Origin: a virus
Length of the DNA stretch: 64,000 nucleotides
Direction: 5' to 3' (one strand)
Virus record (IMG/VR): IMGVR_UViG_3300025769_000090
Span: 1 to 64,000 of that record
The translations under genes were made by a program, and so were the position numbers. This document shows positions 1,834-40,383 of this stretch, one piece after another; the stretch's first letter is position 1; every line of letters begins with the position of its first letter. Below the pieces are notes generated by a model. That model made no database searches and was not told the origin of the DNA. It saw nothing but the letters and a program-made list of their open reading frames with translations.

Positions 1834-2007
1834 ATGGATCAAGGAGACATAATTACAAGACTGGAAGTCATCATAGATAAGATAGAATATGATGAAACTA
1901 GCATGGGAGAAGTATATGATATGTTAACTTCTCTAGTATCTGATATTGAATTTTCAACAGATTATGATGCTGATTTCGGAGATGTTCAGTTTAGTGACTT
2001 AGATTAA
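1834..2007 (+). CDS. small acidic hypothetical protein
   Basis: This 57-residue ORF begins MDQGDIITRL and ends in an acidic tail (QFSDLD). It fills most of the gap between the VWA gene and the next gene. It is rich in Asp and Glu, predicted mostly helical at the N-terminus, and has no membrane segment or Cys. There is no clear Shine-Dalgarno sequence, like most starts here. I do not recognise a family. Coding is supported by the open frame across the gap and by codon use like its neighbours. Confidence 0.6.
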   Translation: MDQGDIITRLEVIIDKIEYDETSMGEVYDMLTSLVSDIEFSTDYDADFGDVQFSDLD

Positions 2008-2016
2008 TATTTATCA
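2006..2016 (+). promoter_or_regulatory. candidate late promoter element (AATATTTATCA)
   Basis: This is one copy of the recurrent AT-rich motif close to TATATTTATAA, found at the head of many gene groups in this window. It overlaps the stop of the small gene before it and lies 50 bases before the ATG at 2067. Promoter function is inferred from recurrence and position. Confidence 0.4.
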
Positions 2017-2066: not shown

Positions 2067-2354
2067 ATGGCAAAAGAATTAAATGAAGATACTGGCTTTC
2101 AAGTTAGTATAAAAACCCTAGCAGGAATAGGGGCGGCGATAGCGACCGTAGTTAGTATGTGGTTTGCTCTTCAAGCTGATATAGCTGAAGCAAAAGAATT
2201 GCCTGCTCCCCCAGCTCCCGAAATTACAAGAATGGAGTTTGACATGAAGGACCAACTAGTGCGTCAAACAATTATGTCAACACAATCAGACGTAACTGAG
2301 ATTAAAGATCAATTAATACGTCTTGAGGATAAGATAGATGATCTAAAAGATTAA
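2067..2354 (+). CDS. membrane-anchored coiled-coil protein
   Basis: The product has 95 residues. Residues 18-38 form one hydrophobic segment (AGIGAAIATVVSMWFAL). A short proline-rich stretch (PAPPAPEI) follows, then a C-terminal heptad-like coiled coil of about 40 residues. Single-TM plus coiled-coil proteins of this size are common in marine T4-like phages and are often near lysis genes. A spanin- or holin-accessory role is possible but not shown. It is the first gene of the envelope-directed cassette that runs to about 8 kb. Confidence 0.6.
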   Translation: MAKELNEDTGFQVSIKTLAGIGAAIATVVSMWFALQADIAEAKELPAPPAPEITRMEFDMKDQLVRQTIMSTQSDVTEIKDQLIRLEDKIDDLKD

Positions 2355-2355
2355 T

Positions 2356-2724
2356 ATGAAATATTTAATTTCAGTATTATTATTCTTATTTATTAGCACT
2401 AATGCTAGTAAACCCCCATTATTAGAAGAAAAAACCCCCATATGTGGGGATAATATATGCGTTGTACAGTTTAACGCAGCATTTAATTCAGCAAATGAAG
2501 TAACTTGGTTAGGTGATTTAACAGACTGTGATGTTAATACTGTTGACATTATGGTTGATCCTAGTTTACCCCAAGATTATAAAATTGTTGTTGTACCCAC
2601 AATCCTTATTTTAGATGAAGGAGAAGAAGTAGCGAGGTTTCAGGCCAACATTATGATGACTATGGAGGCAACTCGTGAAGAGGTGCAAGAATCTATAGAT
2701 AACATCATAATGAGCAAATTTTAA
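2356..2724 (+). CDS. secreted thioredoxin-like protein lacking a canonical CxxC
   Basis: The 122-residue product has an N-terminal signal peptide (MKYLISVLLFLFISTNAS). The mature part has a beta strand (VVQFNAAF), then the VVVPTILIL segment that matches the thioredoxin cis-Pro strand, then a Gly/Glu turn and strand (EGEEVARF) and a C-terminal helix. The place where CxxC normally sits reads NAAFNSAN, so disulfide chemistry of the classical type is unlikely. Cysteines are present elsewhere (CGDNIC and TDC). It overlaps the T9SS cargo gene by one base (TAATG), suggesting coupled translation and a role in that exported product's folding. That role is inference. Confidence 0.6.
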   Translation: MKYLISVLLFLFISTNASKPPLLEEKTPICGDNICVVQFNAAFNSANEVTWLGDLTDCDVNTVDIMVDPSLPQDYKIVVVPTILILDEGEEVARFQANIMMTMEATREEVQESIDNIIMSKF

Positions 2725-5700
2725 TGAAACATTTTTTAACCTCTCTTTTATTTTTTATTGGATTAGTAGGGTTGGCTCAGCCAACCTACTTAGATCTCTC
2801 TATTCAATTAGATGAATACCCAAGTGAAACATCTTGGATGCTTACACAAGGTAATGATACCCTTGCTTATGTTCCCTTTAACACATATCCTGAAGGAATC
2901 TTAGATAGTGCTTTAATCGAAGAAACTCTTTATTTAGAACCAGGAATTGAATATAAATTTTATCTATTTGATGAATTTGGTGATGGGAATTGTTGTGGAT
3001 TTGGCAATGGGTGGGTATCAGCTGAAAATGATTGTCAAGGAATTATATTTGAAGAATATAACTTTGGTGGTTCTGCTATAGATTTTCAGTTTGTATTAGA
3101 ACCATGTGCCCCCCAAGTCCCCGTTGCTGAGGTTTTATTTAGAGTAAACTTAGCTAATGCTCCTCCTGGCATAGAAACCCCAGGCGTATTAGGTAGCTGG
3201 AATGGGTGGCAGGTAATCCCAATGACTTATGACGAAAACGATGAATGGTTTTTAGAAGTTGAAGTCCCTTTAGGAAACCATTTATGGAAATTTGCAAATT
3301 TTAATAACCCTGACCAACAAGAACTCCCATTAGGTGTTGGAGCTGGTTCTTGTTTTTTATTTGATGGTAATGGATATGTAAATAGAACTTTAAATATAAC
3401 CAGCGAAGAAGAAATAACCCTCCCCCCTTATTGCTGGGAGTCGTGTCTTCCCTGTGGAGCCATACCTGGATGTACAGATTTTAATGCTATTAATTGGAAT
3501 CCTTGGGCTAATTTTGATGATAATTCTTGTATTTCTCAAACCACAGAATGTGGTCCTGGAGAAACTACCATTGAAATAATAGTAACCCCTGATAACTTTG
3601 GTGGTGAAATTAGCTGGAAATTATTTAATGACTTTGGTGAAGTAGCAGCTGTAAATCCTGGTGAGTACGGAGGTTCACCCCCGGGTATTCCTATTTCTAC
3701 TTTTTTATGTGTACCTACTGATGTATCATATGATTTAGTTACTTTTGATACTTATGGCGATGGGGTATGTGGTTCATGCTTTGGGGGAACAGTAATAGGT
3801 AATGTTCAAATTTTAGATTGTGAAGGCACAGAATTATATAATTTGCAAGATGAATTCCCTGATGGTAATTTTGGGTATGATACCGTATCTGAACAGTTTA
3901 TTCCAACCCAGTGTGGTGGGGTAGTAGAGATTGAAGGGTGCACCGATTTCAATTATGTGGAATTTAACCCTGAAGCTACCATAGATGATGGAAGTTGTTT
4001 TACTGAAAGAATTTATGGTTGTTTAGATGAAACACAATTTAATTATAACCCAGAAGCTAATACACAAGATATAATAGAAAGTTGTGTATTTAACTTAACT
4101 ATTAAAGATGGTGTTGGTGATGGTTGGTTTGGTAGCTGGTTAGGAATTTGGCAATTTGGGTATAATTCTCCACAATACCAAATGGGTCCTAACGATGGTA
4201 TTGAAGAGTCGTTTACTCTTACTTTAGATGCCACTCAGCCGGCTTATATTTACTTCTTTGTAACCCCCCAATCCATAGGAACAGCCCAACAATGTGGGTT
4301 TACTTTAACTAATTTAGAAGGAGAGATAATGATTGATGTCCCCTTCTTTAACATAATCCCTTTCCTAAATGAAAGTGGTTGGTATGCTTATGAAATAAAC
4401 CTTAATTGTGGTAACAATTGTATTCCCTTTATAGAAGGATGCCTAGATGTTGAAGCTTTTAATTATCACCCTTATGCCAATACTGAAGACGGATCTTGTT
4501 ACTATGCTCCAGGTTGTACTAGCGCGGGTTATGTAGAATATTATACTCAAGGATTTGAAGCCGATTTTGATAATGGAGGTTGTCAAACATTAGCAATTTT
4601 TGGGTGCACTGATCCTGATGCATTGAACTATGATGAAAATGCTAATGTAGATAATGAAACTTGTATCCCTAAAGTATTTGGGTGTACTAATGAATTAGCA
4701 TTTAATTATGATCCTTTAGCCAATACTGATGATAATTCTTGTATTCCTATTGTAGAGGGTTGTACTAACCCTAATGCTCTAAATTATAACCCAATAGCTA
4801 ATACTGAAGATTTCAGTTGTATATTACCAATTTATGGTTGTACCGATCCTGAGGCATTTAATTTTAACCCTGATGCTAATGTAGATGATCAATCATGCGT
4901 AGCAGTAATATTCGGTTGTACTGATGAAACTGCTTATAATTTTAACCCATTTGCTAATACAAACGTAGGGTGTATTTCTATAGTATATGGATGTACAAAC
5001 CAATTTGCCTTTAATTTCAACCCATCAGCTAACATAGATGATGGTTCTTGTGAAAGTATGATTTATGGATGTACTGATGAGAGTGCATTTAATTATAACC
5101 CATTTGCTAACACAAATGTAGGATGTGAGTCATTTGTTGAAGGTTGTACTGATGTAGAAGCTATTAACTATAACCCTCAAGCCAACACTGACGATGGTTC
5201 TTGTGAACCAATCGTATTTGGTTGTTTAATTCCGACAGCATTTAATTTTGATTCTGAAGCCAATACTAATAATGGATCCTGTATAGATGTTATATTTGGG
5301 TGTTTAGACCCTACAGCTTTTAACTACGACGAATTAGCTAATACAGATAATGGTTCATGCGAACCTGTAATAGAAGGTTGTATGGATCCAGATGCTCTTA
5401 ATTTTAACCCATCAGCTAATGTAAATGATTTTGATTGTATTGAAGCAATTTATGGATGTACAGATGAGACAGCTATTAACTACAATGAATTAGCAAACGT
5501 AGATAATGATACTTGTATACCAAGAGTTGAGGGATGTATGAACCCAGAAGCTCTAAACTTTAACCCTGATGCTAACGTAGATGATGGAAGTTGTATATTA
5601 CCAATTTATGGGTGTACTGATGAAACTGCTTTAAATTATGATGCAGACGCCAATGTAGATAATGATTCGTGTATAGAAATAGTTGAAGGCTGTACTAACC

Positions 5701-6392
5701 CAGAAGCCTTAAATTATAATGAATTGGCTAATGTAGATGACTTTAGCTGTATACTTCCAATTTATGGTTGTACTGATCCATATGCTTTTAACTATAATGA
5801 ATTAGCAAACATAGATAATGATTCATGTGAAGATGTAGTAGAAGGATGTACTGACCCAACAGCATTTAACTATAATCCTGAAGCTAATACTGAAGATTTT
5901 AGTTGTGAGCCATTTATTTACGGTTGTACTGACCCTGAAGCTGCTAACTATGATGAATTAGCTAATACAGATAATGGTACTTGTGAAACTGTATATGCCG
6001 AATGTGCTGATCATGTTATAGAAGCATATAATGTATTAGATTTGGAAGCTGAGTGTTTTGCATGGGTAATTGATGTTAGCCCAAGTTGTTGTAGTAGTGG
6101 GTGGTCTTATGGGTGTCAGGAATTATATAATTATTGTGAAGATAACACAGTTACTTCTTTAGAAGATTTTAGTGAAACTCAAATACTTGTATTCCCTAAC
6201 CCGACAAGAGATCGCGTAAATATCGCAAGTAACTTGCAGATAAACGCAGTACTATATAATTATATAGGACAGCCCGTACTAAGGGAGACAAACGTAAATC
6301 AGTTGGATTTAAGTAGGCTTGAGGCAGGTATGTATAACCTAGTTTTAACTTATAATGATCTCCAATTTACTAAAAAAATTATTAAGCAATGA
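2724..6392 (+). CDS. T9SS-exported surface protein with about 23 GCTDPxAxNYNPxANxDDGSC repeats
   Basis: The 1222-residue product starts with a signal peptide ending in GLAQ, with cleavage before or near Gln as in Bacteroidota. Three beta-rich segments with GDG and Cys loops follow (around residues 20-120, 280-400 and 450-570). Near residues 135-230 lies an E-set, starch-binding-like module (GSWNGW followed by GNHLWKF). About 23 repeats of roughly 26 residues come next, each bounded by two Cys and holding a D/N-rich loop that could bind calcium. Residues 1154-1222 form a type A T9SS sorting domain (FPNPTRD, YNYIGQPV, LDLSRLEAGMY, TKKIIK). Export across the outer membrane by the host T9SS and surface display are inferred from family knowledge. 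It overlaps the beta-barrel gene by four bases. A phage-encoded T9SS cargo is unusual. It could be an adhesin, a receptor mask or a moron of host origin. Confidence 0.85.
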   Translation: MKHFLTSLLFFIGLVGLAQPTYLDLSIQLDEYPSETSWMLTQGNDTLAYVPFNTYPEGILDSALIEETLYLEPGIEYKFYLFDEFGDGNCCGFGNGWVSAENDCQGIIFEEYNFGGSAIDFQFVLEPCAPQVPVAEVLFRVNLANAPPGIETPGVLGSWNGWQVIPMTYDENDEWFLEVEVPLGNHLWKFANFNNPDQQELPLGVGAGSCFLFDGNGYVNRTLNITSEEEITLPPYCWESCLPCGAIPGCTDFNAINWNPWANFDDNSCISQTTECGPGETTIEIIVTPDNFGGEISWKLFNDFGEVAAVNPGEYGGSPPGIPISTFLCVPTDVSYDLVTFDTYGDGVCGSCFGGTVIGNVQILDCEGTELYNLQDEFPDGNFGYDTVSEQFIPTQCGGVVEIEGCTDFNYVEFNPEATIDDGSCFTERIYGCLDETQFNYNPEANTQDIIESCVFNLTIKDGVGDGWFGSWLGIWQFGYNSPQYQMGPNDGIEESFTLTLDATQPAYIYFFVTPQSIGTAQQCGFTLTNLEGEIMIDVPFFNIIPFLNESGWYAYEINLNCGNNCIPFIEGCLDVEAFNYHPYANTEDGSCYYAPGCTSAGYVEYYTQGFEADFDNGGCQTLAIFGCTDPDALNYDENANVDNETCIPKVFGCTNELAFNYDPLANTDDNSCIPIVEGCTNPNALNYNPIANTEDFSCILPIYGCTDPEAFNFNPDANVDDQSCVAVIFGCTDETAYNFNPFANTNVGCISIVYGCTNQFAFNFNPSANIDDGSCESMIYGCTDESAFNYNPFANTNVGCESFVEGCTDVEAINYNPQANTDDGSCEPIVFGCLIPTAFNFDSEANTNNGSCIDVIFGCLDPTAFNYDELANTDNGSCEPVIEGCMDPDALNFNPSANVNDFDCIEAIYGCTDETAINYNELANVDNDTCIPRVEGCMNPEALNFNPDANVDDGSCILPIYGCTDETALNYDADANVDNDSCIEIVEGCTNPEALNYNELANVDDFSCILPIYGCTDPYAFNYNELANIDNDSCEDVVEGCTDPTAFNYNPEANTEDFSCEPFIYGCTDPEAANYDELANTDNGTCETVYAECADHVIEAYNVLDLEAECFAWVIDVSPSCCSSGWSYGCQELYNYCEDNTVTSLEDFSETQILVFPNPTRDRVNIASNLQINAVLYNYIGQPVLRETNVNQLDLSRLEAGMYNLVLTYNDLQFTKKIIKQ
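4602..5984 (+). repeat. in-gene tandem repeat array, 78-bp period
   Basis: Eighteen consecutive copies of a repeat of about 26 codons run from residue 627. Each begins GC(T/L/M) and ends in a Cys after an acidic/Asn loop. Two copies (ANTNVGC) are shorter by two residues. Copies have diverged in DNA but keep the GC, NY/NF, AN and final Cys codons. Alternating link types (IPIVE, LPIYG, VIFG) hint at expansion in units of more than one repeat. Five more isolated copies lie upstream between about 3465 and 4600. Confidence 0.9.
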
Positions 6393-7423
6393 AAAAATTA
6401 ATTACCCTAATATTAACTCTAGCTTGTTTTATACCTGCTCAAGCTCAGTTTTTACAAAAACAACTTAAGTTTGCTACTTTCTACACAGCAGTTACGGGAA
6501 ATAATTCATTAGCTGATATTAGTTTATACTCTATAAATCCTACTACTGGTTTATTAGAAGAAGAAATTATAGAAACTCCTTTTGATTATACTTTAGCTTT
6601 TGGAGTTAGGAAAATTGCCCGTTTAGATTATGAAAATAGGAAAAATGTATTTTATAATGGCACCGAATCCTCAGTTTCAGATGCAGCTACAGTAGGTAAT
6701 GTAGAAGGTTTAGAATATTTATTTGAATTCGATTATAAAAGACAACAAGGTAGTAAATTTGTAGATCAACAACATTTTTTAAGATATGTTCATGATCATT
6801 GGATTGTAAAAACAGAATACGTCCAAGATGGGTTTGCTGATTTAAGGTATTTTGAAGCCTCCCAACGTTATAGATATAATTTTAATGAAAAGTTTTCACT
6901 TAACGCTGGTTTAGTACAACGTTTTTCTGAACCTTATGGATTTGATCCTTTAGATGGATTAACAGAACCCGAATTTAGTTTAATAGCCTTAGAGCAAGGT
7001 TATACTGCCAATATAGGAGAAGGAACCTGGTCTATAGATAATACTACAATAGCTGAAAATAGTGACGTATGGAGGTTAGTTGTACTTCCTGAGATATTAA
7101 GTGAATATTCTGATCAAGAAAAATCTCAACTATCTAATCAATGGAATCACTCATTAGTATTAGGGTATGATTATTATCATTATACTAAAACTTTTTGGTT
7201 TCACTCTTGGGCCAGTGTATTACCTCTCCATGTAAGTGCTAAAAGCGAGTACTCATACTCAAATTTTATTGATGGTAATACTTGGTTTGACTATACTGGT
7301 GGGTTAATTTTAGGATGGCAAGTAAATAAAAGATTAGGTATTTTTTCCGAGGGAAAATATCATAAGTATTGGAATCGTGTATGGCATGATTTTTCAATAG
7401 GATTTAACTATAGAATATTATAA
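6389..7423 (+). CDS. outer-membrane beta-barrel candidate
   Basis: The 344-residue product has a clean signal peptide (MKKLITLILTLACFIPAQAQ). The mature part consists of alternating amphipathic strands rich in Tyr, Phe and Trp and ends in an aromatic strand (DFSIGFNYRIL), the usual outer-membrane insertion signal. It lies four bases inside the end of the T9SS cargo gene, so the two are probably made together. It could anchor or assist the exported protein, alter surface permeability or change phage receptors. It lacks the sequence start typical of PorP/SprF, so I do not assign it to that family. Confidence 0.65.
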   Translation: MKKLITLILTLACFIPAQAQFLQKQLKFATFYTAVTGNNSLADISLYSINPTTGLLEEEIIETPFDYTLAFGVRKIARLDYENRKNVFYNGTESSVSDAATVGNVEGLEYLFEFDYKRQQGSKFVDQQHFLRYVHDHWIVKTEYVQDGFADLRYFEASQRYRYNFNEKFSLNAGLVQRFSEPYGFDPLDGLTEPEFSLIALEQGYTANIGEGTWSIDNTTIAENSDVWRLVVLPEILSEYSDQEKSQLSNQWNHSLVLGYDYYHYTKTFWFHSWASVLPLHVSAKSEYSYSNFIDGNTWFDYTGGLILGWQVNKRLGIFSEGKYHKYWNRVWHDFSIGFNYRIL

Positions 7424-7435
7424 AAACATAACAAC

Positions 7436-7654
7436 ATGAAATTTACAGAAATTTTTAAAGAAAAAAATGACATCAACGAAAAATCAGTAGTTGGTTTCGC
7501 TGCATTTGCTATTATGGTATTATTTGCTGTAACTGACTTAGCAACAGGTTACTTCGGTAAAGATTTAGTAATTAATGAAGCAATTTATAACTCATTTGTA
7601 TTTGTAACTCTAGGTAGCTTTGGAATAGCTGGTTTAGAGAAATTCGCAAAATAA
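7436..7654 (+). CDS. small two-TM protein, holin-like
   Basis: The product has 72 residues with two hydrophobic helices (about residues 19-38 and 47-65) separated by a short polar loop. Charged ends are present, with a Lys-rich N-terminus and a KFAK tail. Size and topology fit class II holins, and similar proteins are seen near lysis genes in marine phages. No endolysin is recognisable next to it, so the assignment is tentative. Its stop overlaps the start of the nuclease gene. Confidence 0.5.
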   Translation: MKFTEIFKEKNDINEKSVVGFAAFAIMVLFAVTDLATGYFGKDLVINEAIYNSFVFVTLGSFGIAGLEKFAK

Positions 7655-12795: not shown

Positions 12796-13942
12796 AAATT
12801 ATGGATTTAGAGTGGGGGGTACTAGTACTCCTAAACCCTTGAAAAAAACTAAAAGGGTAGCGGATATTATTCTAAACCCAAATCACCCCAAATATACAGG
12901 TCCTGATAGTATTGGTACTATATTTTTTTCAGATGAAAATTCCCAAGAAATCACAGCTGACGTATATTCACTCCCTATTGCTAAACCTATTAGTAGAAAC
13001 AACTATACAGCCCCTTTAATTGGTGAAGTTGTAGAAGTTATTCAATCCATTTCAGGGGATTATTACAAAGATTTAGGTGGAAGGCGTAATAATAAATCTT
13101 ATTATTATTACCCCCCGTTAAATATTCATAATAATACTACTAATAATGCTTTACCTGTAGCAATACAAATTCCTCGTTCTACAATAAATCCCACAGGTGT
13201 TTCATTTAATGATTCTAATTTTTCTTTAAAAACCGAATTTACAAATATTAGTTTACAAGCTGTTGAAAGAGATTTAGATAATTACCTAAGAGATTTAGGT
13301 TATCCTTCAGGTAGAAAAGATCAGCGAGCACCCAAATATAAATTATCTAAGTTAAATAACGGAAGTTATAGCTTTATTTTAAGTGATTCTAGTGGTGAAA
13401 ATTCATCAAGGTTAGGGGATTATTTTGAAGAAAATAACAACCAACAACCTCTCACCCCTACAGAAGGGGATCAAATATACGAAGGTAGATCAGGTCAGCG
13501 TATCAGATTTACTAGTACAGGTCCTGATGGTACTAATTCAATTAGTGATGGTGCTACACAGGTTGAAGATGGCAATTCTACTGTAGGGGATCCTGCTATA
13601 CTTTTAAGTTTGGGAGAAGATCCTTCGGAAAACATCAATACAGATCAAGGATCATTTTATGTATTATCTAACCATAAAATATCTATAGACGTAATTTGTA
13701 AAAATATTGATTCACTCAACTCCAAATATACAGAATTAGCAAATCCTTTAACACAAATAGCCGCACCCGCTCCTATTATATTACCTGAAGAACCCATATC
13801 TACAACTCCTGATATAGATTATAATAATTTGGATCCTGTAGATGATACCCAAATTTCGTTATCTTTAACGACCCCAAATCCACAAATTAATGATCCTCTG
13901 TTTGATGATTTAAATCAAACCCAAGACGAATCTATTTTATAA
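12776..13942 (+). CDS. baseplate hub OB-fold protein, gp5-like candidate
   Basis: The 388-residue product has a beta-rich N-terminal half. The segment from about residue 20 to 130 (SIGTIFF, then PLIGEVVEVIQSISGDYY and YYYYPPLNIHNN) resembles the OB-fold part of T4-like hub proteins that are annotated gp5-like in marine phages. The C-terminal 150 residues are low-complexity and acidic, with SDxxGENSS-type loops. No lysozyme domain is visible. It overlaps the upstream gene and starts the baseplate series. The assignment rests on pattern and context. Confidence 0.5.
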   Translation: MSLRQNKNYGFRVGGTSTPKPLKKTKRVADIILNPNHPKYTGPDSIGTIFFSDENSQEITADVYSLPIAKPISRNNYTAPLIGEVVEVIQSISGDYYKDLGGRRNNKSYYYYPPLNIHNNTTNNALPVAIQIPRSTINPTGVSFNDSNFSLKTEFTNISLQAVERDLDNYLRDLGYPSGRKDQRAPKYKLSKLNNGSYSFILSDSSGENSSRLGDYFEENNNQQPLTPTEGDQIYEGRSGQRIRFTSTGPDGTNSISDGATQVEDGNSTVGDPAILLSLGEDPSENINTDQGSFYVLSNHKISIDVICKNIDSLNSKYTELANPLTQIAAPAPIILPEEPISTTPDIDYNNLDPVDDTQISLSLTTPNPQINDPLFDDLNQTQDESIL

Positions 13943-13950
13943 TATAAACT

Positions 13951-14388
13951 ATGGCTACTGAATTTATACAAGAAGATTTATTTGTAGGAAAACAAATTCT
14001 AATTGATAGTGATCGATTAGTATTTAATAGTAAAAAAGATTCTATACTATCTAGTGATAGTTTAATCCTTTTTAAAACTAACGGCGAATTTCATATTAAT
14101 ACTGGAAAAGATTCATTTATTAACACTCCCAAAATATTTATAGGCCCCGTTATAAATGGTGAAACCCCTAATATTCCAGCAGTAAAAAGCGATTCATTAA
14201 AAACCATTCTATCTGATTTGCTAAGTTCTTTAGAGGCCTTTTTTACAGTATCATACCCACAAACTTCGGGATTATCAGGCCCTAATCCAGCAGCAAATCA
14301 ATTATTAAGCCAATCAATAATTAATAATTTAAAGAGGATAGAAGCCAAATTAGACGGTATAGATAGTGAAAATGTATTCATCAGATGA
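13951..14388 (+). CDS. baseplate-region structural protein
   Basis: The product has 145 residues. The N-terminal half is beta-rich with repeated short strands (LVFNSKKDSILSSDSLILFKT), like beta-helix or spike elements. The C-terminal half is a helix. The gene overlaps the next by four bases (ATGA). A spike-tip or hub accessory role is possible from context only. Confidence 0.5.
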   Translation: MATEFIQEDLFVGKQILIDSDRLVFNSKKDSILSSDSLILFKTNGEFHINTGKDSFINTPKIFIGPVINGETPNIPAVKSDSLKTILSDLLSSLEAFFTVSYPQTSGLSGPNPAANQLLSQSIINNLKRIEAKLDGIDSENVFIR

Positions 14389-15209
14389 TTGAAAATTTAT
14401 TTAATAATAATATTAATTCATTAACTGAAACTTTATTCCAAAGTAAGGATCAGATACTAGCTTCGGCTCAAAAAAGGGACCAAGAAGGAGCTTTAAAAAA
14501 AGTCCCTACCCCTGACCAATTCGAAACAGAATTAAAAGGATATATAACAGATAATGTTACCCCTTCACAGTTAGTAGAAATAGAAAATAAACTTAATAAA
14601 GCAATTAATTTAATAGAAAAAGCAATCTCAAAATTAAAAGCTATTAAAAAACCCTTAGATCAAATTAGAAATAAAATTTCGAATATAGAAGCTAAATTAT
14701 CTTTTTTAAACGAAATATCAGGAATGGTTTCAGAAATTACATCCTTTATTAACCCCTTAATTTCTATCATAGATGGACTTTTAGTAGCTAATTCTGGCCC
14801 TGCAGCTAATGGGGCTACCATTAATAAGTTAGGAGAACAGAAAAAAGAAATTAAAAACCTTATAAAAAGAGGATCAAATACTGCTAATAGTATTTCCTCG
14901 GTCCAGGGATTTTTCTTTAAAGAAATCGATAAATTAATAACTCCTTTAGATGATGGGATATCTAGCCTTAACGAGGCCATTGAATTTTTAGAAAACTTAT
15001 TACTTAGATTCCAATCTATTTGGGGAGATTTCTTAACCCAAACCCTATCTAATATTAATCTTGAAAATACAGAATATGAAAATATAGATTTTACTACATA
15101 TCTTGAAAATAAAGAAGATAATACTAGTGATATTATATCTGACTTAATAGGTATTAATGAAGGTAATATAAGTACTGGTAACTTAGCGTTTAAAAGATTT
15201 AAAATTTAA
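14385..15209 (+). CDS. coiled-coil baseplate or tail-tip protein
   Basis: The product has 274 residues. Long helices with heptad-like Leu/Ile spacing span most of it (around residues 60-125 and 165-215), broken by a hydrophobic stretch (SEITSFINPLISIIDGLL) and a Gly/Ala loop. It could be a tape-like or hub-associated protein. It is too short for a tape measure. It ends the first baseplate subgroup; the promoter-like motif overlaps its stop. Confidence 0.5.
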   Translation: MIENLFNNNINSLTETLFQSKDQILASAQKRDQEGALKKVPTPDQFETELKGYITDNVTPSQLVEIENKLNKAINLIEKAISKLKAIKKPLDQIRNKISNIEAKLSFLNEISGMVSEITSFINPLISIIDGLLVANSGPAANGATINKLGEQKKEIKNLIKRGSNTANSISSVQGFFFKEIDKLITPLDDGISSLNEAIEFLENLLLRFQSIWGDFLTQTLSNINLENTEYENIDFTTYLENKEDNTSDIISDLIGINEGNISTGNLAFKRFKI

Positions 15210-15218
15210 TATTTATTA
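15208..15218 (+). promoter_or_regulatory. candidate late promoter element (AATATTTATTA)
   Basis: This copy of the recurrent motif overlaps the stop codon at 15207-15209. It lies 13 bases before the ATG at 15232, at the start of the gp25-gp6 group. Confidence 0.45.
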
Positions 15219-15231
15219 AAAACTAATAGTG

Positions 15232-15594
15232 ATGAAATTAAATTCATTTGAAAAAATAATTAGAAAAGTTGTGCGTGAGGAAATAGATTATGCCTTAAGG
15301 CGTGAAATTGCACTACTAAAAGAAGAATTAACTCCTCAACCCCAACAACGTATAGTTGAATCCCAATCAAACCCTCAAGAAGTTGAAGATTTTAGATCAA
15401 AATTAAGAGCACAAATGCCCCCACCTAATTTTAATACGGGTAATGATACTCTTAATTCACTTTTATCTGAAACTGCTACGGCACCTAACCCAGAACAAAC
15501 ATTTGCAGCTAACGATCCTGTAAATCAGTTTATAAACAAAGATTATAGTCAATTAATGACTGCTATCGATAAAAAGAAAGAATTTAGACCCTAA
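15232..15594 (+). CDS. hypothetical protein with leader-like N-terminal helix
   Basis: The likely start is the ATG at 15232 rather than the in-frame GTG one codon earlier. The 120-residue product begins MKLNSFEKIIRKVVREEID, an amphipathic helix like the other tagged N-termini in this phage. A proline/glutamine-rich middle and a helical end follow. The stop overlaps the gp25-like start. It is probably a minor virion protein. Confidence 0.5.
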   Translation: MKLNSFEKIIRKVVREEIDYALRREIALLKEELTPQPQQRIVESQSNPQEVEDFRSKLRAQMPPPNFNTGNDTLNSLLSETATAPNPEQTFAANDPVNQFINKDYSQLMTAIDKKKEFRP

Positions 15595-16040
15595 TGGCAA
15601 TACGACTTCGGAACCCTATTAAGATCGACCCTGTAGATGTAAAAGATAAATCTGCAGTAGGGGTTCGTTTACCTTTTGGTTCAAGGAAAAATGTATTCAC
15701 CTTAGATTACACCACAAGAAGTCATGCTAAATCTAAATTAACTAATCTATTATTAACTTCCCCTGGTGAAAGAATTAATCAACCATTTTTCGGTGCAGGG
15801 TTAAAAAATAGATTATTTGAACAACAAACCGAAATATCTGAAGGGGAATTAAGGGATTATATAACCCCACAAGTTAAACGATATATCCCTGAAATAAAAA
15901 TAAATGATATAGAATTAAAAAAGGGAGGTTTACAAGGACATCAATTATTTGTCACTGTAAACTATTCATTAGTTAATAATGATGAAGAAGAATCAATAAC
16001 CCTTAGTTTCACTGACACTAATTTTGAATCTAATTACTAA
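15594..16040 (+). CDS. 25: baseplate wedge subunit gp25-like
   Basis: The 148-residue product has the gp25/P2 gpW (GPW) family layout: a helix-strand N-terminus, the LLTSPGERINQPFFGAG segment typical of the family (here close to the EPR-type core), and a C-terminal beta hairpin region (FVTVNYSL). Gp25 trims and locks the wedge core with gp6 and gp7 in contractile baseplates. It overlaps gp6-like by one base (TAATG), the usual pairing. Confidence 0.85.
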   Translation: MAIRLRNPIKIDPVDVKDKSAVGVRLPFGSRKNVFTLDYTTRSHAKSKLTNLLLTSPGERINQPFFGAGLKNRLFEQQTEISEGELRDYITPQVKRYIPEIKINDIELKKGGLQGHQLFVTVNYSLVNNDEEESITLSFTDTNFESNY

Positions 16041-17923
16041 TGGCATATATAGACGGAAATACTGGTAATAAAACTATAAATTACCTTAACAAGGATTTTA
16101 ACGACTTCAAAGAAGCCTTAATTAATATGGCTGAAGTTTACTACCCAGATATATCTAATGATTTTTCTGAGGGTAGTCCAGGTACTATGTTTATAGAAAT
16201 GGCATCTTACATAGGTGATGTATTATCATTTTATACGGATGCTCAACTTCAAGAAACTTTTTTGGAATATGCCCAAGAAAGAGAAAATATATATGCCCTA
16301 GCATATACTTTAGGGTATACTCCTGCTGTTACTAATCCTTCGGTTGTAGATTTAGAGATTTTCCAACAAATCCCAGCAAAAACCACAGATGATACCCCAG
16401 ATTATGATTATGCTCTAAGGATAGAAAAAAACTCTACCTTTTTACCCAACAATAGTAGTGGTGTTAGTTTTATTATTCAAGATGACGTAAATTTTGCATT
16501 CAGTTCTTCCTCAGATCCCACTGAACAAACTGTATATGCTACAGTAGCTGGTGGAACTCAACCCGATACTTACTTACTTAAAAAAACTGTAAAAGCTATT
16601 AGTGCCGAAATCAGAACCAAAACTTTTACTATAGGAGTAGCCGAAAGATTTAAAACCCTTTCTTTAGACGACTCTAATATTATAGGAATCCAATCAATCA
16701 CAGATAGTAATAATAACGAATATACTGAAGTCCCTTACTTAGCACAGGAAACAGTATTTGAAGAAGTACCTAACACAGAAGCTAATGACCCTGATTTAAA
16801 TCAGTACAATGGCCAAGTACCCTTTTTACTTAGAACTAAAAAAGTATCAAAACGATTTGTTAGTAGATTTAAATCTAATAATCGTTTAGAAATTCATTTT
16901 GGGGCAGGTGCAACAAGTGGAGATGATACTACAATTATCCCTAATCCAGATAATGTAGGATTAGGAATTAGGGATGGTAGATCATTATTAGATAAATCAT
17001 TTGACCCCTCAAACTTCCTATATACTAAAACTTATGGAGAAGTTCCTTCAAATACTACACTTACTGTAAGATACCTCACAGGTGGTGGAATTAAATCAAA
17101 TACTGGAGCAAATACTATAAATAGATTAGGCAGTGTTATTTCAATAGCCCGTAGAGGAAATTTAAACGCAGGATTATTAACTAGTGCTAGGGATTCTATA
17201 GCGTGTAATAATCCTAAACCTGCCACAGGTGGAGGATCTGGAGATACTCTACAGGATATTAAGTTAAATGCTGCTGCTAATTTTGCTTCTCAAAAACGAA
17301 CAGTAACTAAAGAAGATTATATATTCAGAACTTTAGTAATGCCACCCCAATTTGGTAAAGTAGCTAAAGCATATATAGCACAAGATACCCAAATATCACT
17401 TGATACTAGTAAAAGAATAGCTAACCCTAATGCATTAAACTTATATACCCTGGGTTTTGACATTAACGGCAAATTAACTAATTTATCAGAAGCTGCTAAA
17501 ATTAATTTAGCAACCTATCTAGAACAATTCAGAATGCTTACTGATGCAATTAATATTAAAAATGCTTCTGTAATTAATTTTACGGTTAACTTTGATATTT
17601 CTACTAGACGTGGGTATTCGGGTGATAGAGTATTACTAACGTGTATTAACGCGTTAAGACGTGAATTAAGTACGGATAATCGCCAAATCAACCAACCTAT
17701 TAACCTAGGAGATATTAATAGTCTTCTTTATACTATTGATGGGGTCCGAACGGTAAATAATTTAGAATTTAAAAACGTATTTGGTGAAGATAAAGGATAT
17801 TCTAAGTTTAAATACAACTTTGAAGCAGCTACTAAAAATGGAAACATATATCCTTCACTTGACCCCAGTATTTTTGAACTAAAATATCCCAACACTGACA
17901 TAATAGGCAGAGTAACAAGATAA
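16040..17923 (+). CDS. 6: baseplate wedge subunit gp6-like
   Basis: The 627-residue product is a T4 gp6 / P2 gpJ type wedge protein. Early motifs include FNDFKEALINMAEVYYPDIS and SEGSPGTMFIEMASYIGDVL, typical of the family N-terminus. The middle is beta-rich. The C-terminal region (KRTVTKEDYIFRTLVMPPQF, then a helix and SLLYTIDGVRTVNNLEF) also fits. Two gp6 copies and one gp7 make each wedge core. It follows gp25-like directly. Confidence 0.85.
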   Translation: MAYIDGNTGNKTINYLNKDFNDFKEALINMAEVYYPDISNDFSEGSPGTMFIEMASYIGDVLSFYTDAQLQETFLEYAQERENIYALAYTLGYTPAVTNPSVVDLEIFQQIPAKTTDDTPDYDYALRIEKNSTFLPNNSSGVSFIIQDDVNFAFSSSSDPTEQTVYATVAGGTQPDTYLLKKTVKAISAEIRTKTFTIGVAERFKTLSLDDSNIIGIQSITDSNNNEYTEVPYLAQETVFEEVPNTEANDPDLNQYNGQVPFLLRTKKVSKRFVSRFKSNNRLEIHFGAGATSGDDTTIIPNPDNVGLGIRDGRSLLDKSFDPSNFLYTKTYGEVPSNTTLTVRYLTGGGIKSNTGANTINRLGSVISIARRGNLNAGLLTSARDSIACNNPKPATGGGSGDTLQDIKLNAAANFASQKRTVTKEDYIFRTLVMPPQFGKVAKAYIAQDTQISLDTSKRIANPNALNLYTLGFDINGKLTNLSEAAKINLATYLEQFRMLTDAINIKNASVINFTVNFDISTRRGYSGDRVLLTCINALRRELSTDNRQINQPINLGDINSLLYTIDGVRTVNNLEFKNVFGEDKGYSKFKYNFEAATKNGNIYPSLDPSIFELKYPNTDIIGRVTR

Positions 17924-17925
17924 CA

Positions 17926-19089
17926 ATGGCACACTATTTTATTTTTCCCGAAAAAGATGCGACAATATACTCGCACCCTACTAATCAATCTCTTAACACA
18001 GGGATAGATGAAATATTAACTTTAAGAGATATAGCCTCAAACACAGACTTAAATTATTATCCTAGTAGATTTTTAATTCAATTTAAGACTAAAGACTTTG
18101 TAGACGTAATTAATAATAAAGTAGGAAATAAAAACTTAATTACTGCTAGTTTAAAAGCTTATCAAACTGAACATAGAGAATTAATAGGTGATCAACACTT
18201 AGAAATCTACCCATTAGCTGAAAGCTGGGTAAATGGAACTGGTAGACTTTCAAACACTCCCCAAACTACAAATGGTGTATCTTGGAAATTTAGAGATGGA
18301 AGTGATAACTCATTTTCTAATACATTCGGCACAGCTTGGACTACGAGTAGCTTTACCGCGGGCACCACAGGTAGTTTTATAAGTGATGCTAAAGGGGGTG
18401 GTGTCTGGTATACTGGATCTGGTTTTGAAGTTGAAAGAACATATGGGTTTAACGATGAAATAGATATATCTTTAGATATATCTACCCCAGTTTTAAAACA
18501 CTATAGTGCTAGCAATGATTCTGCTGTTTACCCTTCTGGTATAACTAATAATGGTTTTTTAATCAAACGTTCGGGCTCCCAAGAATTCACAGCTAAAGAT
18601 GAAGGAGAGTTAAATTTCTTCTCCATGGACACCCACACCATATACCCACCTTATTTAGATATAGCGTGGGATGATTCATCGTATGATACAGGATCTGCTA
18701 CAAGCGATAAGATCTTAAACACAGGTGAAGTTTATGTTACCCTAAGAAACAATAAAGCAGAATATAAAACTATAGAAGAACCTAAATTTAGACTTAATGT
18801 TAGAGAATTATACCCTACACGTAGGTTTACTACTTCTTCAAACTATTTAGATGTAAAATACTTTACTAGTAAATCATTCTATTCATTAGTTGATTATGCC
18901 ACAGAAGAAACTATTATACCATTTGGTCCAACTTCTAAATTAAGTGCTGATTCTGAAGGTATGTATTTCAAAATGTATATGAATGGTCTTCAAGAGGAAA
19001 GATACTATAAGTTACTTTTCAAACACGAAAATGAAGACGGTATTAGAGTATACGATGAAAACTACTACTTTAAAATCACTAGATCATAA
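17926..19089 (+). CDS. DNRLRE-like beta-sandwich structural protein
   Basis: The product has 387 residues. The N-terminal half fits the DNRLRE pattern: DATIYSHPTNQSLNTG, a Phe-rich strand (SRFLIQFK), and PLAESWVNGTGRL followed by WKF. The second half is another beta-rich region. Such modules are carbohydrate- or protein-binding sandwiches in surface proteins. Here the gene sits between gp6-like and gp7-like, so a baseplate peripheral role is likely. The DNRLRE link is by pattern only. Confidence 0.6.
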   Translation: MAHYFIFPEKDATIYSHPTNQSLNTGIDEILTLRDIASNTDLNYYPSRFLIQFKTKDFVDVINNKVGNKNLITASLKAYQTEHRELIGDQHLEIYPLAESWVNGTGRLSNTPQTTNGVSWKFRDGSDNSFSNTFGTAWTTSSFTAGTTGSFISDAKGGGVWYTGSGFEVERTYGFNDEIDISLDISTPVLKHYSASNDSAVYPSGITNNGFLIKRSGSQEFTAKDEGELNFFSMDTHTIYPPYLDIAWDDSSYDTGSATSDKILNTGEVYVTLRNNKAEYKTIEEPKFRLNVRELYPTRRFTTSSNYLDVKYFTSKSFYSLVDYATEETIIPFGPTSKLSADSEGMYFKMYMNGLQEERYYKLLFKHENEDGIRVYDENYYFKITRS

Positions 19090-19970
19090 TGGCATACAGC
19101 AGCTACAGTGGCAATAATTCGCCTGCAAATAGCAAAGTTACTATAGATTCTGATGAAGATCAGGGTTTACCCATAGATAATTTTGATAAGGAAGAAACCC
19201 AATTTGATACCCAAGGTGATATAGTATCTATAAGTTCTACTATCATTACTGATACCCCCCGTGAAAGAAATAGTAGCGGTGAAATTAAGTTTCGCCGTGA
19301 AATATATAGTCCAGCAGCGTTTAAACAACAGGTAGATACTAGTTTTAGTGAATTAAATAATACTAGTGAAATAGATGTTTCTACATTTTTCAGACAATAC
19401 AGTAGATTATTTTACGATATTCCTAGACAAGGTGATGATTCCCATGAAACCCTTATAAGGGAAAGCAGTGCATTTTTTACCAATTATGAAGATGCTAGAG
19501 ATGCTCAAATAGATGTTTTAGAAGCCCAAATAAGCGATCTTACCCAACAGCTAGCCCTCTTAAATGCAGAAAATCTTGGATTACAAAATGCTAATGATGT
19601 TACTACTATAACATATGGCTCCGATTTAGACGATGTAATTCTTACTTGGAATGCACCCCTTGCACAAAATGGTTTAGAAGCACGAATCGGACAATTATCA
19701 AGAAACTCCAACCAAGTGGAAAACCTTACAGGCACGCCTTTAGAGACCAATGTAAACTTTAATAATGAACGTCCTGAATTAATACGTGATGCTAGACAAG
19801 CATTTGAAAAAGGAGGTTCACAGGGTATTAGAGCTAATGAAAATCAAAGAAAATTAAGTGAGTGGAAAGCTGACTTTGAACGCAGATCAAGCGGGCGTAG
19901 AAAAAGAGACCTAAACAACATTCTAAATGCTATCTACCAACTTATATTAAAAGACATAAACGAAGGATAA
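19089..19970 (+). CDS. baseplate-region structural protein with coiled coil
   Basis: The 293-residue product has a polar beta-rich N-terminus. A coiled coil follows near residues 140-165 (DVLEAQISDLTQQLALLNAE), then a region with a basic C-terminal helix (RRSSGRRKRDLNNILNAI). It overlaps both neighbours by one base, so it is part of a coupled wedge operon. No family is recognised. Confidence 0.55.
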   Translation: MAYSSYSGNNSPANSKVTIDSDEDQGLPIDNFDKEETQFDTQGDIVSISSTIITDTPRERNSSGEIKFRREIYSPAAFKQQVDTSFSELNNTSEIDVSTFFRQYSRLFYDIPRQGDDSHETLIRESSAFFTNYEDARDAQIDVLEAQISDLTQQLALLNAENLGLQNANDVTTITYGSDLDDVILTWNAPLAQNGLEARIGQLSRNSNQVENLTGTPLETNVNFNNERPELIRDARQAFEKGGSQGIRANENQRKLSEWKADFERRSSGRRKRDLNNILNAIYQLILKDINEG

Positions 19971-22900
19971 TGCTATTAGATTTAACAACCATAGAAAATA
20001 TAAGCCAAGCAGATCTGACAGGGTTACCTTCTAAAACTTTACTCAGAAGGTTTGGACAGGATAATGATTCAATAGAATTAACTATATATGATATTAATAA
20101 CAATATTATAATCAGGGATGAACAATTTACAGATTATATTCCTTATATAAATCCACAAGATAGTTTAATTGATTCTATTGATATTGATTATGTTCAAGTT
20201 CTAAATGATTATGGGCTAGAAAATGGACAATATAAATTAGTTTTTTCTTTCCAAAGAAAACTTTTAACTAGTGGTTTTGATAGACCATTTATAATCAAGG
20301 AAATTTCCCCCTCTAGAACTGAGATTAGATTTAAATCTAATAACTTAGATTCTGAATCATTTTCAGCTGTTTTAGAAAATCTTTTAGCAAACTTTACAAA
20401 TAATTCATTTGTAAAAGATATTAATTTAAGCTTCCCTGATGGTGTTACAAGCTTAGCAGTTAATGCCCAAAGAGATGTAGATTCTGGATTAATAAAATTA
20501 TATGATCCTCTTTTACCTAGTATTGCATTAAATACTCCTTTTAGAATATATGAGGAGGTAATAAATGCTTTAGAAGCTACTGTTGACTTAGGGACATCTA
20601 AAACTGAAAGTGGAGGAGTTGAACTAAGAGCCCCTAATTTTGATGTAGAATTTAACCAACACTATAGCACTCCCACAGAATTTAGAACATATGATGAGCT
20701 ATTAAATAATGGGGCTGTTACTTCTAGTTTTAATAACCTTCAAAATTACCTTAGTGGGAGCATTTCTGTTGATTTAGAATTTGATAATCCTAACACATCA
20801 ACAGGTTTTCACTTTGAAAACTTTATCCATTTTAGTTCCGCAACTGAGCGATTAAAAAACTTTAAATATAAGTTAGAACTACTAGAATCATACTCTAGTT
20901 CACTAGCTACCCTTGAAAACATCACTGGTGATGCTTCTTCTTCTAAACCCACTTTAGATAATATTAAAATATTTAATAATAAAACCGATAAAGTTATCCA
21001 AGGGTTTGATTATTACGAACGATTCTTATATTTTGAAAACAACCTATATGCTTGGCCTAAAACAACTACGGGGAGGTATCCACATATAAATGCTAAAGTT
21101 AATTCAGCAGCTGCTCAATCTTGGCTAGGTGCCGGAGTAGAAGATTCTACTAATCAGTATTATGGAGGGCAGTTACTAAGTGCTAGTAAATTTGATGAAA
21201 TTAACCCCCATAATTTAGCTACCACTATCCCACCAGATATAAGAGCCAATTCTGAAAATGAAGCCTATGTTCTATTTACCCAAATGGTGGGCCAACATTT
21301 TGATGGAATTTGGGCTTATATTGACAGTATACCAGATAAAAACCAAGCATATAGTGGATTAAATGATGGCATTTCTAAAGAATTTGTATTTGAAGCATTA
21401 AGAGAAAGAGGAATTAGAGCCTACAGTCAATTTGAAGATTCTTCAATATATGAATATTTCTTAGGTGACGATGGTACTGGTACTTTCCAATATGAAGCTA
21501 CTGATGGTTCAACTATGGTATCAGCTTCTAACGATGGGTCAATTCCCAAAGGTGACATATCAAAAGAAATTTGGAAACGTTTATATCATAATACCCCTTA
21601 CCTTTTAAAAACTAAAGGCACTGAGCGTGGATTAAAAGCACTAATTGCATGTTATGGTATCCCAGAAACAGTATTACATGTTAAGGAATATGGTGGTCCA
21701 TTAGTAGATAAAACAGGATTTAGAACATTTAGCTACCAGAAAGAAAGCCGAATGTTATCCCCTGCTGATGATGATTATGTTATTAGTGATACATTAATTA
21801 GTCGCCAGACAAGTCAAACACTACAAACTAGATTTTTACCTACTAAAGGATCAACCACAGCATTTGACATTATGTCATTTGCAGGTAATTCTGGTAATAC
21901 TAATGATATAGTAATTGGTATTTCACAGAGCTTAAATAATACTAAATTAGACTCGGGTTCATTTGCTCACTTAGTTATCGCCTCTGGTTCATTAGCTGAT
22001 CCATCGGCAGGTAGAATTAAAGCCATTTCTAGTAGTTTATTAGGACCAATTTTTAATGGTGAAGTGTGGAATTTATCTGTTATATTAAATAGTGGTTCTG
22101 ATAGAGGTAATACAATAGAAGCTTTTGCAACCAATACTACTTTTAATAAAAACACATATATTTTATCTTGTAGTTTAGATACACCCGAATTCTTCGCATC
22201 AGGTGCAGGTTACCCTTTTTATATTACTACTGTAGGCTCTACTAAACCTATAGGGGATAATAGCCAAAATGGAACTTTATTAGCACCCTTTAGTGGTAGT
22301 ATCCAAGAATTTAGGTCATGGGATGAAAAATTAACTAAAGATACAATAGTTACTCAATCCTTATCTCCCTTTAACTATAATGGTAATACTATAAGTTCAA
22401 GTTTTGAAGCTTTAAGAACTAGGTTATCATTGGGATCTTGCAATAGAGATTTAAGCCTACTTACAGGTAGTAAAAACCAAGCCCCAAATAAAACATTTAC
22501 AGATATTTCTAATAACCTTGCGCAAGTCCCGTCCACAGTAACCCTAACTACGATTGAAGAAACCCACCACCTAACTACACCAGATACTGTAGGTTCAGGA
22601 ATGGTTTCAGATAAAATTAGAATTGATAACGGTACATTTAACGATAATTTCTTAGACCCATTTATTTCTACTGAAACATCACCTCAAGACAGACAACCAC
22701 TTGATTATTCAGATGTAGGTGTATTTTTCTCACCAACTTTTGAAGTTAACGAAGATATAATTTACACATTAGGTGGATTTAGATTAGACGACTACATTGG
22801 AGACCCAACACATTATACCTCAGGTAGCTATCCTGATTTGAAAGACATTAGAGACGTTTATACTCAAAAATTAGATAAAAAATTAGGTATAGGTGATTAT

Positions 22901-39697: not shown

Positions 39698-40003
39698 ATG
39701 AAATTATGGAAATGGATAGTGGGACTATTTGCAGCTATTGGTGGTGCTGCTGCGATAGCTTCCACTCAAAAGAAAAAAGCCCACGAAAAAAATGTTAAAG
39801 AAAACCAAAAACAGGTCAAGCAGGTACAAGCTAAAACTAAACAAGTTCAGCAACAAAAAGCTGAGACTAAAAAGGCAATTACTACTCAAAAGAAAAAAGT
39901 AACTACTGCTAAAAAGCAAGTTAAAAATACAAGTAGTGCTAAAAAGACTGCAAAAAGTTTTGAACAAAAATACCGCAAGCCAGGTAGACCAAAAAAGAAA
40001 TAA
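39698..40003 (+). CDS. membrane-anchored Lys/Gln-rich protein with AT-hook-like tail
   Basis: The 101-residue product has an N-terminal membrane segment (WIVGLFAAIGGAAAIAS), then a Lys/Gln-rich coiled-coil stretch and the end KPGRPKKK, whose GRP core looks like an AT-hook. The strong positive charge after the TM predicts a cytoplasmic C-terminus, where it could hold DNA near the membrane. It is coupled to the next gene by TAATG. A Rz-like inner-membrane spanin is another possibility. Confidence 0.55.
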   Translation: MKLWKWIVGLFAAIGGAAAIASTQKKKAHEKNVKENQKQVKQVQAKTKQVQQQKAETKKAITTQKKKVTTAKKQVKNTSSAKKTAKSFEQKYRKPGRPKKK

Positions 40004-40383
40004 TGAAAAATATATTAGTAACTTTACTCTTAGGGTTATCTAACATATGTTATTCACAAGATACTCTTCGAATTCCCGCTACGGAACTTGAAGAGTTCTT
40101 CTTGGCTCTAGATACCCTTGAAATCCAAGACTCAGCTAAAGCAATATTAATTACTGAACTTGAGCGAACTATTAAACTATATGAACTCCTCGCTGAACAA
40201 GACAGTTTAATTATAAAATTTAAAGATCAAGAAATATCTTTACTAAACGACCAGATTCAACTTCATTTAGATTACATAAATGAAACTGATAAGTGGTATA
40301 ATAAACCCTCAGTAGGAGTTACAGCTGGTGTGTTAGGTACTATATTTTTAATACAAGCTTTAGATTATACGCTGCCTGACTGA
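40003..40383 (+). CDS. secreted coiled-coil protein with C-terminal TM, spanin-like
   Basis: The 126-residue product has a signal peptide (MKNILVTLLLGLSNICYS, cut before Gln). A coiled coil spans about residues 40-90, and a C-terminal hydrophobic helix (SVGVTAGVLGTIFLIQAL) follows. This resembles a unimolecular spanin layout, but the N-terminal Cys (NIC) is not a good lipobox. With the previous gene it could make a two-part lysis or envelope complex. The stop is followed by a promoter-like motif. Confidence 0.5.
   Translation: MKNILVTLLLGLSNICYSQDTLRIPATELEEFFLALDTLEIQDSAKAILITELERTIKLYELLAEQDSLIIKFKDQEISLLNDQIQLHLDYINETDKWYNKPSVGVTAGVLGTIFLIQALDYTLPD

Follow-up and report, generated by a model that had tools for sequence, protein, structure and literature searches.

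A predicted type IX secretion cargo gene and its conserved neighbours in a T4-like phage

Introduction

Why does a phage carry the gene for a large protein that appears to be addressed to the type IX secretion system (T9SS)? The question is raised by IMG/VR record IMGVR_UViG_3300025769_000090, a linear record of 75,239 bp, and by the part of it analysed here, positions 1 to 64,000 (64,000 nucleotides, called the window below). A first-pass annotation of the window described the open reading frame at 2724-6392 as a secreted repeat protein with a T9SS sorting domain. The T9SS is a main surface route in Bacteroidota, which are major marine polymer degraders, and T9SS adhesins are suspected phage receptors. 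The protein, called the cargo below, proves to have conserved partners, and on balance we favor the view that together they form a phage-encoded surface-display module, with a T9SS-exported cargo, a barrel partner, periplasmic helpers and a role in blocking adsorption. The features concerned, with coordinates in the window, are the following.

2067..2354, + strand: tm1, 95 amino acids, with one N-terminal membrane segment and a coiled-coil tail, as read from sequence
2356..2724, + strand: exported thioredoxin-like protein, 122 amino acids, with NxxN in place of CxxC
2724..6392, + strand: predicted T9SS type A cargo, 1222 amino acids
6189..6389, + strand: type A sorting domain at the C-terminus of the cargo
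6389..7423, + strand: predicted phage-specific outer-membrane beta-barrel, 344 amino acids, with a signal peptide

Results

The cargo and its sorting domain

The C-terminus of the cargo is recognized by T9SS models. The match spans residues 1156-1222 and scores 40.8 bits with TIGR04183 (cut-off 23) and 36.7 bits with PF18962 (cut-off 27). It is the sole TIGR04183 match in the whole record (E 2.8e-13), and the type B sorting domain, TIGR04131, has no match in the record. The cargo sequence also matches 8glj_D and a lipase, the matched part of the latter being the lipase's sorting domain. The type A domain that the first-pass annotation had read from C-terminal motifs is thus confirmed by both models, and the outcome in which this region fails every T9SS model did not arise. 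TIGR04183 matches 35 of 37 aligned cargos, and it exceeds its cut-off in 30 of 44 whole viral records, at one site per genome and rarely two.

Structure prediction points in the same direction. A cargo model made for a close relative, L022 (893 amino acids; related contigs are given L numbers), has a mean predicted local distance difference test score (pLDDT) of 77, with most of the sorting domain above 80. It matches 8glk_D, the NucA substrate in a T9SS translocon complex, with a template-modelling (TM) score of 0.77 on the target and 33% identity, as well as the RgpB sorting domain 7pq4. The modeled sorting domain of L022 therefore agrees in fold with a substrate that was trapped in the SprA-PorV translocon of the T9SS.

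The rest of the cargo is built from variable heads and a long repeat array. It consists of a signal peptide-like N-terminus (MKHFLTSLLFFIGLVGLAQ, judged by eye and a simple pattern only), N-terminal beta domains of which one is CBM48-like, 23 GCTD repeats, a CC..WD domain and the sorting domain. The open reading frame with these two ends is as first described, and the estimate of about 23 repeats of the form GCTDPxAxNYNPxANxDDGSC holds: a strict GCTD...GSC pattern finds 22 and a looser one 23, while 1000 residue-shuffled versions of the protein contain at most 5. Eighteen repeats run uninterrupted, head to tail, with a 26-residue period through residues 627-1087, and Tandem Repeats Finder reports a 78/156-bp period in the gene. 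The protein has 69 cysteines in total and no homology to other proteins of the same record. The 134 complete distinct cargos have 5 to 28 repeats and measure 626 to 1572 amino acids. The heads differ between relatives, and the CC..WD domain and the sorting signal are conserved. In the window's clade the N-terminal part has a CBM48-like carbohydrate-binding fold, matching the AMPK glycogen-binding domain with a TM score of 0.75 on the target in a relative's model; in the window's own cargo, residues 155-191 have a weak sequence match to the same kind of domain. The head is a MAM domain in L148, and in L206 it has a weak choice-of-anchor-J match. Judged from its sequence, the cargo has the layout of an adhesin, with a variable head, a stalk and an anchor, and the mask, aggregation and binding roles suggested at first pass are plausible.

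A conserved four-gene module

By the evidence of related loci, the cargo is one of a module of four genes, the others being tm1, the exported thioredoxin-like protein and the outer-membrane barrel. In the window, the start of the cargo at 2724 shares bases with the stop of the thioredoxin-like gene, and the start of the barrel at 6389 does so with the stop of the cargo, an arrangement seen in translationally coupled operons. The first-pass annotation had placed the cargo in an operon with a secreted thioredoxin-like protein and a beta-barrel. Both neighbors and the operon stand, with the refinement that the thioredoxin-like protein lacks CxxC; the conserved four-gene unit and the redox-dead character of the thioredoxin, as judged by sequence, had been overlooked.

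The module is found in many viral contigs. When these were searched with the barrel, 78 loci were obtained, almost all of which adjoin a cargo, an exported thioredoxin-like gene and tm1. A search with tm1 only was used to avoid selection on the cargo. It found at least 594 viral relatives. The 80 best loci were retained, and 41 of these span 15 kb or more; in this group of 41, the thioredoxin-like gene is present in all, the barrel in 40 and a sorting-domain cargo in 34. A cargo search of viral stretches gave at least 487 matches. Pooled loci, made non-redundant by barrel, number 106: 102 have the cargo, 100 the thioredoxin-like gene and 97 tm1, counts that are biased upward by the inclusion of loci found via the cargo. 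All four genes share one strand. Three gene orders account for 99 of the 106 loci: cargo-barrel-tm1-thioredoxin (53), barrel-tm1-thioredoxin-cargo (30) and tm1-thioredoxin-cargo-barrel (16). All three are cuts of one circular order, so that the loci are cyclic permutations of each other.

The genes of the module recombine, with distance correlations over the whole set mostly between 0.1 and 0.5. That they are nevertheless kept together argues for a functional unit. In the barrel-tm1-thioredoxin-cargo order, the N-terminus of the cargo lies physically nearer the barrel gene than its C-terminus. Barrel divergence in these loci tracks the CC..WD domain with a rho of 0.75 and the N-terminal domains with 0.15-0.18. 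Because it follows the CC..WD domain and not the nearer N-terminus, there is circumstantial support for the barrel touching the C-terminus of the cargo. The commonest gene order does not have that contrast (0.28-0.31 for all cargo domains).

The record is a fragment of a marine T4-like phage. It includes a terminase large subunit, a T4-type major head protein and a baseplate protein, in agreement with the phage origin first proposed. Over the full length, the major head protein shares 55% identity with its counterpart in Flavobacterium phage immuto, and it shows distant similarity to those of many T4-like phages. Since its nearest relative is from a Flavobacterium phage, the host is likely a member of the Bacteroidota. 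The cargo gene lies 2.7 kb from the contig end. An artefact of the contig edge was ruled out, because the same gene order and flanks recur well inside longer contigs such as those of L009 and L019.

The partners of the cargo

The barrel appears to be specific to phages. Its model has about 12 strands, and a fold search returned generic porins, at low TM scores, plus one unnamed viral protein. Two known T9SS barrels were considered and rejected. In a profile comparison with PorP/SprF, a value of 29% was obtained over the signal peptide and the adjacent N-terminus only, and in a Pfam search there was no match, PF11751 included; for PorV, the hhalign probability against NF033709 was 0.3. A bacterial origin was also rejected: the bacterial and archaeal genome collections contain the barrel in only eight contigs of metagenome-assembled genomes (MAGs). 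The majority of these are plainly virus-like, the others are too short for a verdict, and several sit in improbable bins (Woesearchaeota, Nitrosopelagicus). The viral or virus-like contigs L082 and L086-L089, inside published MAGs labeled Nitrosopelagicus, Maricaulis and Woesearchaeota, were probably placed there by binning contamination. Among isolate phage records, neither the barrel nor tm1 found a match, whether the queries came from the window or from distant relatives.

The thioredoxin-like protein has probably lost its redox activity. Its match to PF00085 is weak, and its family profile matches thioredoxin 2vim (E 5e-7), indicating a thioredoxin fold. The classical active site of E. coli thioredoxin is FWAEWCGPC. 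Distant members of the phage family read FWAEWNKSN and FWADWNSKN, which fixes the alignment to that site. The position is NxxN in 168 of 170 distinct homologues and CxxC in none. With its active-site cysteines replaced, the protein is predicted to be redox-dead and should be unable to catalyze disulfide chemistry in the usual way; it is likely to serve as a structural factor or a chaperone.

The coiled-coil tail of tm1 is expected to be periplasmic. The layout of tm1 fits that of an inner-membrane spanin partner. No lipoprotein partner was identified for it, and its PHROG matches are weak and include no lysis family.

Genomic setting and timing

The module is often found in a lysis region, as its common neighbors show. 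After the four core genes these are a small membrane protein, a nuclease, an M15 peptidase, a holin with three transmembrane segments and amidases. Two further features of the window belong here.

7436..7654, + strand: tm2, a small membrane protein encoded close to the barrel in 37 of the 106 loci
2007..2014, + strand: candidate promoter element ATATTTAT, upstream of the module

A family search with tm2 gave no match. It is possibly a holin, and is a frequent neighbor and not a core gene of the module. Elsewhere in the window, at 39698-40383, two membrane/coiled-coil proteins are encoded side by side, and one of them weakly matches Rz-like spanins.

Late expression of the module is probable, because it adjoins lysis genes. 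On the plus strand, 11 of the 21 copies of ATATTTAT, a motif chosen post hoc, lie within 70 nt upstream of gene starts, where 1.5 would be expected; the other strand has 2 copies. The genes preceded by it include capsid-region genes and, at 2007, the module. Further intergenic copies are found in the window at, for example, 8049, 24517, 43846, 45741, 50732 and 51448. The motif is a candidate late promoter. The classical T4 late promoter TATAAATA is not enriched in the window.

Discussion

Proposed function

The evidence suggests a surface-display module that would work as follows. The cargo would cross into the periplasm through its signal peptide, and the host T9SS would recognize its type A sorting domain and pass it across the outer membrane onto the surface of the infected cell; the sequence and fold evidence behind this proposed export is strong. 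The phage barrel may be a dedicated outer-membrane partner or anchor for the C-terminal part of the cargo, serving a type A cargo as PorP/SprF barrels serve type B cargo. The membrane protein tm1 and the redox-dead thioredoxin could be periplasmic assembly or holding factors for the Cys-rich cargo, and the whole would be made late in infection. Variable binding heads on a repeat stalk would then keep further phages from adsorbing to the infected cell and its debris.

That the purpose is to mask the cell and its debris from further phages is an attractive idea that we hold with less assurance than the display module itself. Two points make it plausible: in flavobacteria, the gliding adhesins exported by the T9SS and the gliding machinery have been proposed as phage receptors (PMC13288928, PMC7345892), and T5-type Llp is a precedent for phage-made surface blockers. 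More tentatively still, the barrel, the membrane coiled-coil rod and the redox-dead thioredoxin might be a phage-owned machine that captures the C-terminus of the cargo and holds it on the infected cell, making the host T9SS a standard tool by which a large class of marine Bacteroidota phages controls adsorption. If the proposal is true, a surface-rewriting phage module links secretion, receptor choice and superinfection in an abundant, poorly cultured phage group.

Several observations weigh against surface display by this module. About a third of the 44 tested records have no sorting domain above the cut-off. Many relatives without a TIGR04183 match, including most of the records examined, have instead a short tail, ITDLLGRPxK..N.LLFYIY.DGxVExKxIK, directly after the CC..WD domain; by eye, this tail can be taken for motifs D and E of a sorting domain. 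The barrel model is of moderate confidence (pLDDT 68), and the fold search for it gave no T9SS-specific match. Finally, faster recombination of the heads could produce the same correlation between the barrel and the CC..WD domain.

Shortened tails without the PNP motif and below the TIGR04183 cut-off occur in L123, L143, L148, L162, L166, L167, L199, L206 and others. They may be minimal T9SS signals that lie outside current models. According to a review, the last 22 residues of one sorting domain, spanning D and E, are enough for secretion (PMC10202324).

Alternative explanations

Other functions for an exported cargo can be considered. The displayed or released protein might make infected cells or debris adhere to particles, to polysaccharide or to other cells, and progeny would thus be freed near new hosts. 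Adhesion-type heads (CBM48-like, MAM) on a long repeat stalk would suit such dissemination, and type A cargo can also be released (PMC10202324), but dissemination alone leaves the strictly kept barrel, tm1 and thioredoxin-like partners unexplained, and we consider it unlikely. An abundant cargo could instead jam the T9SS by occupying the translocon or PorV, so that receptor adhesins of the host are no longer exported and the binding properties of the cargo are irrelevant. The sorting signal is the feature common to the cargos, and many relatives seem to manage with a minimal D/E-like tail. A plug, however, would need neither conserved extracellular domains nor variable heads, which makes jamming improbable. 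We give equally little credence to a spanin-like role in which tm1, the thioredoxin-like protein, the barrel and the cargo jointly open the outer membrane as infection ends. The nearby holin, M15 peptidase and amidase genes and the inner-membrane spanin layout of tm1 agree with it, yet a large hypervariable T9SS adhesin would be an odd lysis part, and the pair at 39698-40383 already offers the window another membrane/coiled-coil combination.

It is very improbable that the repeat protein decorates the tail or capsid and resembles sorting domains only incidentally. Synechococcus phage S-CAM3 does have GCTD repeats in a protein whose annotation is virion structural, and related contigs have them in long open reading frames without a signal peptide. 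These separate virion-like GCTD proteins lack both a signal peptide and a sorting domain, while the cargo has a signal peptide-like start and a sorting domain that exceeds the cut-offs and has the right fold, which argues against the cargo being a tail component. The barrel and thioredoxin-like neighbors carry signal peptides as well. Taken as a whole, the first-pass interpretation is partly supported.

Comparison with known systems

Phage-encoded T9SS cargo is already known from Cryophage, and the four-gene module is new here. The Cryophage genome encodes T9SS type A cargo, for which superinfection exclusion was suggested (Bellas et al. 2020, PMC7468147). The two cases share phage-encoded proteins with type A sorting domains that vary between variants. 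Compared by that description, the Cryophage cargos differ in being an endoglucanase, a GH39 enzyme and a PA14 protein, and the passage that describes them does not mention barrel, thioredoxin-like or tm1 partners (PMC7468147). In the open-access literature phage T9SS cargo was found described only for Cryophage, and no description was found of the four-gene module, the phage-specific barrel or an NxxN thioredoxin.

By analogy, the closest cellular counterpart is type B cargo with an adjacent PorP/SprF anchor. In the SprB/SprF case a large surface adhesin is likewise anchored or guided by a barrel encoded by the adjoining gene (PMC10202324, PMC11205867). In contrast, the window's cargo is type A, its record has no type B domain and its barrel is not PorP/SprF. 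Among phages, the receptor-blocking lipoproteins Llp of T5 and BF23 are phage-made surface blockers (PMC4728585). They do what is proposed here, in that a protein made by the phage for the envelope prevents further phages from attaching to the cell and presumably to debris. They are small lipoproteins, whereas the present system would combine a giant T9SS cargo with the products of three partner genes. Lambda Lom and the PA-2 Lc porin are phage-encoded outer-membrane proteins. They resemble the barrel in coming from a phage genome and being made by the infected cell, but no sequence relation to them was found, and the barrel here is tied to a T9SS cargo.

Further observations in related contigs

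Close relatives encode a second T9SS cargo, this one of type B by its sorting domain (TIGR04131/CHU_C), and GCTD repeats are present in most of these proteins. The domain exceeds the cut-off in 7 of 46 other records, and sites include the following.

L005:17198-20356: type B second cargo
L012:15239-17296: type B second cargo
L016:15212-17299: type B second cargo
L017:11454-14774: type B second cargo
Contig of L019: type B second cargo

In L005 the type B cargo adjoins a secreted M43 (pappalysin-like) metallopeptidase at 15198-17207, which has a weak type A sorting match below the cut-off and is possibly a third T9SS cargo. Downstream of the module in the same contig, at 12939-14960, are genes that we take to resemble queC/queD/queE of the 7-deazaguanine pathway. 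In L012 a SusC/RagA-like TonB-dependent receptor at 18559-21000 shares a contig with phage genes, and is either host DNA or phage-borne. A protein that is DnaK-like by sequence adjoins the module on the phage contig L017 (6481-8346). Finally, the distant barrel loci L169 (10640-11182) and L152 (10029-10775) encode small secreted proteins of 180 and 248 amino acids, with sorting-like tails and no library match, which seem to replace the large cargo.

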